Of a DNA stretch of 6,226 nucleotides, positions 2 to 988 are shown piece by piece. The first letter of the stretch is position 1. Each line of letters starts with the position of its first letter. Made by a program: the position numbers and the translations under genes. The notes under the pieces are model-generated. The model searched no databases and had not been told where the DNA came from. It saw only the letters and a program-made list of their open reading frames with translations. The stretch is from positions 1 through 6,226 of the forward strand of contig JARKQP010000689.1 in NCBI GenBank assembly GCA_029974875.1, in the 5' to 3' direction. Origin of the DNA: Mobilitalea sp. (GTDB taxonomy: Bacteria > Bacillota_A > Clostridia > Lachnospirales > Lachnospiraceae).

Positions 2-175
2 CCTGCGAAAAAGGAATTTATGGAGATCGTGGGAACCCTGGCAAAACGTCATGGTAATATCACGCTGACAGAGGAAGAGCTTTATGCAGAGGCAAATAAA
101 TGGGAGCTTTCCCATGGAGGAATGTCCGGAAGGACAGCCCAGCAATTTATTACTTATATAGCAGGACAACTATAA
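2..175 (+). CDS. C-terminal end of a DUF815-family ATP-binding protein (partial, 5' end outside window)
   Basis: This open frame enters from the left edge and runs 57 residues to a TAA stop. The visible peptide begins [18 protein letters not shown] and ends with a charged helix, then [17 protein letters not shown] and ITYIAGQL. The KEF-x-x-IV-x-x-LA start, the W-E-L-x-H-G-G-x-SGRTA-x-QF block and the closing hydrophobic helix resemble the C-terminus of the DUF815 family of AAA-type ATPases. In AAA proteins the SGR arginine would fit the small helical lid (sensor 2 region). The Walker motifs would lie upstream, so the ATPase assignment rests on tail similarity only. The exact cellular role of the family is not established. 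No terminator-like hairpin with a U-tract follows the stop; a repeat array begins 25 bases later. Confidence 0.72.
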
Positions 176-199: not shown

Positions 200-323
200 G
201 AAGTGTGAGAAGAAATTCTAAGCCCACAAAATACGTGGACTAAGAATTTCTAAATCTCACACTGGAAGAACGCAAGTACAGCGTTCTTCACCGATTGTTT
301 GTGCCGCTAAAGCGGCATGTCGG
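200..323. repeat. Repeat unit 1 of the tandem stem-loop array
   Basis: The variable arm folds into one long hairpin at 203-262. The outer stem is GTGTGAGA (203-210) with TCTCACAC (255-262). A 3-base bulge AAA lies on the 3' side. The middle stem is AGAAATTCT (211-219) with AGAATTTCT (243-251). The inner stem is CCAC (224-227) with GTGG (235-238), closing a 7-base loop AAAATAC. The constant part follows: GAAGAACGC 265-273 with GCGTTCTTC 281-289, and TGCCGCT 302-308 with AGCGGCA 311-317. Confidence 0.8.
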
Positions 324-469
324 GAAGTGTGAAGAGAAGTTCTAAGGCACCAAAAGACGGTGCCCAACAACTTCTATGCTTCAAAAATGGAATACTATGT
401 ATTCCATTCGGAAGAACGCAGAAACAGCGTTCTTCACTGATTGTTTGTGCCGCTAAAGCGGCATGTTGG
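324..469. repeat. Repeat unit 2 of the tandem stem-loop array
   Basis: This unit has the same plan as unit 1 with different bases. The outer stem is GAAG (331-334) with CTTC (379-382) and a 3-base 3' bulge ATG. The middle stem is AGAAGTT (335-341) with AACTTCT (369-375). The inner stem is GGCACC (346-351) with GGTGCC (359-364), closing a 7-base loop AAAAGAC. It carries an extra perfect 10-bp hairpin absent from unit 1: AATGGAATAC (386-395), loop TAT, GTATTCCATT (399-408). The constant stems lie at 411-435 and 448-463. Confidence 0.8.
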
Positions 470-518
470 GAAGTGTGAATATTGGGCAGCCGCCCGAATT
501 CGCAGGTTTACGGCAGAG

Positions 519-553: not shown

Positions 554-988
554 ATGGAGAAGTATAGGATTTTGGTAAAGGGCGTTGTACAGTATGAGGA
601 CAGGTATCTTGTAGTATGCCGTTGGTTTGATGACCGTATATCGGAGCCATACCAGTGGGGATTCGTTGATGGGGCCATAGAGTTTGGGGAAGAGCCGGAT
701 AAGGCGGTTCTCCGTGCCATTGCAGAGCAGACGGGTCTGCCGGCGGCCATAGACAGGATTCTCTATACCTGGTCCTTTACGACAGGGGATACCTTTAATA
801 TAGGTATCAGCTATTTGTGCAGGGTAAGCTTTGATGATGTAGTTCTTTCTGAGGATCTGGTCGATAGCAGGTGGATGCTAAAGGAGGAATTGGAAGGAAC
901 CATTGACAGCAAGGTATTGGAGGATCTGGAGGAAGCGGAGTTTTATAAAGAAAGATTCCGGTATATTGCGAGACCGGACGAGGAATAA
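554..988 (+). CDS. Nudix-fold protein with a degenerate Nudix box
   Basis: A 144-residue single-domain protein. Nudix hydrolases cleave nucleoside diphosphates linked to another group, using Mg2+ held by the glutamates of G-x5-E-x7-R-E-U-x-E-E-x-G-U. The box here spans residues 40-62 (GAIEFGEEPDKAVL, then RAIAEQTGL). G40, E46, R54, E58 and G61 are kept, but the first glutamate of RExxEE is alanine (A55) and the last is glutamine (Q59). Two of the usual metal ligands are therefore missing, and activity may be weak, altered or absent. The N-terminal strand VKGVVQYEDRYLVVCRW and the W-G-F-V-D-G lead-in are typical of the fold. Start choice: ATG 554 has GGAGG 6 bases upstream; the in-frame TTG at 482 lacks a Shine-Dalgarno site and lies on the repeat edge. 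pyrC starts 2 bases after the stop, so the two are probably cotranscribed. There is no DNA-binding domain, which argues against an NrtR-type regulator. The substrate is unknown. Confidence 0.88.
   Translation: MEKYRILVKGVVQYEDRYLVVCRWFDDRISEPYQWGFVDGAIEFGEEPDKAVLRAIAEQTGLPAAIDRILYTWSFTTGDTFNIGISYLCRVSFDDVVLSEDLVDSRWMLKEELEGTIDSKVLEDLEEAEFYKERFRYIARPDEE

Follow-up and report, generated by a model that had tools for sequence, protein, structure and literature searches.

The window, by which we mean the whole 6,226-nucleotide stretch of Mobilitalea sp. DNA analysed here, opens with the 3' end of a DUF815 gene (2-175, forward strand), which ends 25 nt before a tandem structured repeat. The repeat is followed by a NUDIX domain gene (554-988, forward strand) and, at 991, by a dihydroorotase gene; the rest of the window holds genes for OMP decarboxylase, an opposite-strand cyclophilin, UPF0047 and two dihydroorotate dehydrogenases. 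A separate GGAGG-AGAAAT-CCTCC hairpin lies at 521-553, directly ahead of the NUDIX start, and is found likewise at the equivalent place in loci L109 and L110. Relatives carry extra tandem copies of this small hairpin (about five in L110), each made of a Shine-Dalgarno-like word and its complement.

Layout and folding of the two units

Both units lie on the forward strand. Hairpin A of unit 1 (201-263) is built from an outer stem (202-210/255-263), a middle stem (211-219/243-251) with a 3-nt bulge on the 3' side (252-254), an A.A mismatch (220/242), inner pairs (221-222/240-241 and 224-227/235-238) and the loop AAAATAC (228-234). Hairpin B (264-289, stem 265-273/281-289) and a C module (290-324), which contains a GC hairpin (301-307/312-318) and the core TGTGCCGCTAAAGCGGCATGT, complete the unit. 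In unit 2, hairpin A (325-383) has the loop AAAAGAC and an outer stem of which just 5 pairs are left in the predicted fold, as the expected end of its 3' arm is taken up by about 26 nt that include a further hairpin (384-409, stem 386-395/399-408); hairpin B (410-435, stem 411-419/427-435) and a C module (436-470, GC hairpin 448-453/458-463) follow. The word AAGTGTGA occurs three times, at the two unit starts (201 and 325) and at the right boundary (471-479). The top match to the family model described below is 105.5 bits for 201-289, and 325-407 matches it with 59.7 bits.

Refolding agreed with the pairs, loops and coordinates that an earlier note, made from the letters alone, had given for 200-479; the pairs it singled out, and the corresponding ones 124 nt on, are as it describes. 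Its common plan for the two units held for the stems, bulge and loops, and had to be amended for the 5-pair outer stem of unit 2 and for the extra and third hairpins that the units contain. Segment 201-333 folds with a z score of -9.4 as DNA and -8.9 as RNA, and 325-479 with -7.7 as DNA; in each case 0 of 200 shuffles folded equally well.

The right parts of the units (264-333 and 410-479) are 93% identical and the left hairpins 75%, and the two hairpin B stems have the same sequence around different loops, as the note had recorded. The left hairpin of unit 2 matches a copy in another genome (locus L004) at 58 of 59 positions and unit 1 at only 42 of 59. The tandem is therefore not a plain duplication.

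A dispersed repeat family

The exact 21-base core TGTGCCGCTAAAGCGGCATGT was found at five further loci, spread over three MAGs of Lachnospiraceae or Clostridiales: Lachnoclostridium sp. NALB_7823_23 (G001), Clostridiales AS05jafATM_90 (G002) and Lachnospiraceae STD2_226 (G003). A model of hairpins A and B (R1), built from 23 copies, gave at least 122 matches at E<=0.1 in G001 (3.1 Mb), at least 21 in G002 and at least 24 in G003; these counts are lower bounds, as 150 candidates per genome were scored. Matches were present in 27 of 41 genomes sampled from the genus of G001 (E<=1e-5), in 14 of 150 from the family of G002 (E<=1e-3), and in 2 of 291 from the class (E<=1e-5), both of them members of the G001 genus. 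The two window units are thus members of a dispersed repeat family of Lachnospiraceae, and the recurrence in relatives that the earlier note had envisaged was found many times over, by the core search and by R1 alike.

The family also appears to be undescribed, as that note had thought possible. Rfam 15 gave no family match to the window at E values up to 5, and at gathering thresholds its sole match in 7 of 40 chunks of G001 was tRNA. At the search sensitivities applied, plasmid and phage records contained no blastn match to the repeat and the exact 19-base core was absent from viral contigs, and we found no description of the repeat in the open-access literature, with subscription papers and supplements outside the scope of that search.

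Judged by eye, the copies share a common anatomy. In hairpin A the outer stem, which often reads AAGTGTG...CACACT, is followed by a middle stem; TCTAAG/CTAAGA then flank the A.A mismatch, and a short inner stem carries the loop, with a bulge on the 3' side. Hairpin B takes the form GAAGAACGC/GCGTTCTTC, and C is a GC hairpin following GATTGTTTGTGCC that is variable or absent in some copies. A regular-expression parser could read 106 of 147 copies, and since the motif it reports is the motif it searches for, we used its loop list alone: AAAAGAC, AAAATAC, AAAGTAC and AAAAAAC are the four commonest loops (together 42 of 106), the remainder being variable or carrying longer inserts. AAGTGTGA frequently reappears at the right end of the element. 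This boundary word is a direct repeat; terminal inverted repeats were not seen, and the exact ends are unproven. Tandem arrays occur in the window, at L027 and in genome G015, where four tandem matches in L225 (1133-1552) are spaced by about 91, 91 and 148 bp.

Unlinked copies within G001 are up to 98.9% identical over 89 nt and 96.7% over 92 nt, and orthologous junctions differ in presence or absence. The window has two units ahead of the NUDIX gene and none between NUDIX and dihydroorotase, while in G002, whose operon flanks are 86-90% identical to those of the window, the arrangement is reversed. Near-identical unlinked copies together with presence and absence at orthologous junctions demonstrate dispersal. 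At the rpsH-rplF junction, hairpin A was recognised by eye in 9 of 26 relatives and R1 matches in 11 of 26 loci; several of these copies, with outer stems altered yet still paired, are apparently one old insertion. They look inherited, which would also be compatible with a retained function. A different repeat-like hairpin (AAGCACGAGCGAAGCG... CATCGAGAAAA... TTTTCGAGATG) occupies rpsH-rplF in other species (L087, L089, L099, L102 and L103).

A direct repeat of at least 10 bp at the ends was found for 1 of 49 G001 copies, with about 0.2 expected and with element ends that are not exactly fixed. This copy, L049 17075-17187 (G001 C33:137075), is flanked on each side by a direct repeat of 10-12 bp, a length of duplication that no other of the 49 reaches, and interrupts the 3' end of what is presumably an isocitrate dehydrogenase gene. 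The idea that the 5' arm of the outer stem is copied from host sequence was considered and not established. In L004, a second dispersed G002 repeat (AAATGAGATTAATAAACGAAGGGGGGACC...) lies to the right of the element; 27 of 43 G002 matches begin at query position 133 or beyond and match this flank, not the element.

Two known routes of mobilisation were weighed against these distributions. If the element were a REP-type sequence mobilised by a Y1 (RAYT) transposase, its palindromic form, its many copies and its place at gene 3' ends would be expected, and Y1 genes are present in G130, G027, G158, G178 and G221. However, the element-bearing genomes G002, G003, G045, G090, G063 and G153 lack a PF01797 match, and G001, the richest in copies, has only a 47-codon PF01797 stretch with an internal stop (G188 and G157 were left out of this search); we consider this route highly improbable. 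Still harder to credit is an integron-like attC site, a folded single-strand recombination site in same-strand arrays. The structured site, its conserved unpaired bases and the tandem same-strand units fit such a reading, as does the orthologous G002 site, where a single AAGTGTGAA stands at the position of the window's units (located by eye, as the junction gives a poor global alignment). Against it, the window's units have no cassette genes between them, and 0 of 15 element-bearing genomes has an integron integrase above the TIGR02249 cut-off. Other tyrosine recombinases, with matches below that cut-off in 15 of 15 element-bearing and in all 14 control genomes, may still be candidates.

Covariation and the level of pairing

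Across 79 distinct copies, standard pairs filled 95.6% of cells and changes on both sides were seen at 32 of 34 pairs. Such two-sided changes numbered 533 cells, compared with 129 in shuffles and at most 83 with slid partners, in alignments that are biased towards the modelled structure. The covariation proposed in the earlier note is thus far above both controls.

Selection at the RNA level is expected to tolerate G-U pairs, not A-C. In the first copy set, G-T occurred in 27 and A-C in 36 of 2563 cells; in a second set the counts were 42 and 49 of 2145 once two rows on the opposite strand and a copy already present in the first set had been removed (originally 47 and 49 of 2232). By contrast, seven tRNAs from the same loci gave 13 G-T and 0 A-C among 159 cells (Fisher p 9e-5). 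As G-T is no commoner than A-C in the repeat, unlike in the tRNAs, pairing seems to be maintained at the DNA level, or through one arm being copied from the other. The earlier note had proposed selection on a folded RNA or DNA form: a DNA hairpin or arm copying fits these counts, and RNA-like pairing does not. Comparing G-U with A-C counts is an easy way to recognise, among repeats liable to be classed as noncoding RNAs, those whose pairing is kept at the level of DNA and not of RNA.

Arm copying would also account for covariation by mutation: template switching within the palindrome copies arm onto arm and produces paired changes in one step, with no selection on the fold. Paired changes lacking G-U intermediates are what such a process predicts, and probably orthologous copies have differing yet perfectly paired outer stems. 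It should, however, erase the A.A mismatch and the first bulge base (A), which are kept (conservation 0.94-0.99 and 0.88-0.97, respectively), and it leaves orientation and position unexplained; as the main source of the covariation we think it doubtful. The fixed loop bases, conserved at 0.78-0.97, would not follow from arm copying alone either. Unpaired columns as a class are not more conserved than paired ones (means of 0.75 versus 0.76 and 0.72 versus 0.73).

Orientation and adjacency to stop codons

We surveyed the position of the element in 767 kb of G001, made up of contigs and stretches picked for holding matches. Of 56 matches, 49 were used, after six lower-scoring ones on the opposite strand of a kept match and L068 9935-10036 (E 0.004) had been dropped; merging within 300 bp gave 42 loci. 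Gene calls were home-made, not from an established caller, and missed rpsN. At 36 of these loci the element is sense to both neighbouring genes and at none antisense to both; the remainder comprise three divergent loci (sense to the downstream gene), two convergent ones (sense to the upstream gene) and one contig edge. Co-directional junctions make up 570 of 662 in the surveyed DNA, so the kind of junction is ordinary, and it is the orientation within them that stands out (sense at 36 of 36, p 3e-11).

Of the 39 G001 loci whose upstream gene is in sense, 34 begin between -21 and +8 nt from its stop codon, or 35 counting rpsN, against 27% expected were the starts spread evenly (p 5e-16 for the count with rpsN), and in 19 of the 39 the upstream stop codon lies inside the element. 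Among the matches listed for five other genomes, 61 loci after two opposite-strand rows were dropped, 50 are sense to both neighbours, one is antisense to both, and ten are others (edges, convergent junctions and one within a called gene). Between co-directional genes this brings the total to 86 loci sense to both neighbours and one antisense to both. A start near the stop codon was seen at 39 of 54 loci in the five genomes (15 of 20 in G188, 14 of 18 in G090, 7 of 10 in G130, 2 of 5 in G045 and 1 of 1 in G015), and at 14 of 22 in a cruder count of 24 loci. Exceptions to the adjacency are G045 and the window itself, whose copy begins 25 nt past the upstream stop codon. A Shine-Dalgarno word as the target proved too weak a candidate, with GGAG, GAGG or AGGA in 11 of 49 left flanks and in 62 of 533 control gene ends. 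In G001, genes and elements have their majority strand in common and few copies sit with minority-strand genes; replication strand may be an alternative cause of the orientation.

The element is short, structured, non-coding, multicopy, mostly intergenic and patchy, and belongs by these features to the small interspersed palindromic repeats. We think it probable, more specifically, that it is a non-autonomous, modular palindromic interspersed element that behaves like REP or BOX and is adapted or targeted to gene ends in operons. The simplest account would be a small repeat that is moved or copied as DNA, its hairpin acting in a DNA form (a single-stranded hairpin or a cruciform) recognised by a putative enzyme. 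Operons could tolerate such an element because it ends the upstream frame at once and spares the next ribosome-binding site, and selection could favour sense copies for the same early end of the upstream frame and intact ribosome-binding site. Against this reading stand the lack of exactly fixed ends and of a visible general target-site duplication, and the fact that we found no mobilising enzyme.

Sense copies inside operons such as rpsN-rpsH-rplF would be transcribed along with the genes. On the rival view, the element is a cis-acting intercistronic RNA whose sense hairpins govern the coupling of translation, processing by RNase or the stability of mRNA 3' ends, with selection on RNA explaining structure, orientation and stop adjacency together. 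The near-strict sense orientation and the stop adjacency argue for it, as do the strong predicted RNA fold, the conserved loop and mismatch bases, and the persistence of the element at rpsH-rplF in several species, where its outer stem has changed in a compensatory way. Yet G-U is not preferred, although tRNAs from the same loci prefer it, orthologous junctions are patchy and the neighbouring genes are unrelated. Because of the G-U test we disfavour a role in operon mRNA as the main constraint and regard this explanation as unlikely; as an added role, the element may affect translation or decay of flanking genes in operon mRNA. The earlier note had left a choice between a repeat and a noncoding RNA family: the repeat family stands, and the noncoding RNA is set aside on the G-U counts and the dispersed-repeat behaviour in operons.

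Within the preferred reading of a DNA element, the sense orientation might also reflect targeting. A mobile single-stranded DNA hairpin would integrate where translation ends, aimed by the uncoupling of transcription and translation: the ribosome would leave at the stop codon, the nascent mRNA behind RNA polymerase would anneal to the template there and leave the non-template strand exposed, and a putative enzyme would insert the hairpin as single-stranded DNA into the exposed strand, which would account for copies being in sense and for their beginning at the stop codon. This is a long shot, which we retain because selection alone should leave antisense copies in the longer gaps and only one was seen.

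Closest among known systems in behaviour, and in behaviour only, are BOX and RUP of Streptococcus pneumoniae, which are modular, structured, non-coding, multicopy and intergenic, with nested or tandem modules; 36 pneumococcal genes are reported to have their 3' end, with the stop codon, within a BOX repeat (PMC3049150). Terminal inverted repeats and target-site duplications are described for both BOX and RUP, about 61% of which are on the leading strand, with an excess between genes that converge; the Lachnospiraceae element differs in its direct-repeat ends, its lack of a visible general duplication and its almost invariable sense orientation. REP and REP-like repeats (PMC1590033) are similarly palindromic, dispersed and clustered near gene 3' ends, whereas the present element is larger, has three hairpins, comes without a consistent Y1 transposase and begins at the stop codon itself. 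Prokaryotic MITEs are also short, dispersed and devoid of coding capacity, but neither terminal inverted repeats nor a general target-site duplication are visible in the element. The 3161 candidate structured RNAs from human microbiomes (PMC8040213) resemble it as covarying intergenic hairpins of gut bacteria, and the family may be among them.

If the preferred reading of a palindromic interspersed element is right, then in some Lachnospiraceae dozens of genes per genome, ribosomal protein genes included, have had their ends reshaped by one small repeat that fills operon gaps and can supply stop codons. It would also become directly testable what decides which way small repeats point and where they sit: selection within densely packed operons, or targeting to places where translation terminates.

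Among the upstream genes of the -21 class in G001, such as L060 881-1546 (reverse strand), unrelated proteins have a common element-encoded C-terminal tail, for example CEENF; the genes ending in CEENF we take to be those for an isocitrate dehydrogenase and an O-methyltransferase. Of 30 O-methyltransferase loci in the genus of G001, three have the element at the gene end (judged by eye; one is decayed), and most of the other O-methyltransferase genes terminate 1 to about 23 residues past the same conserved position.
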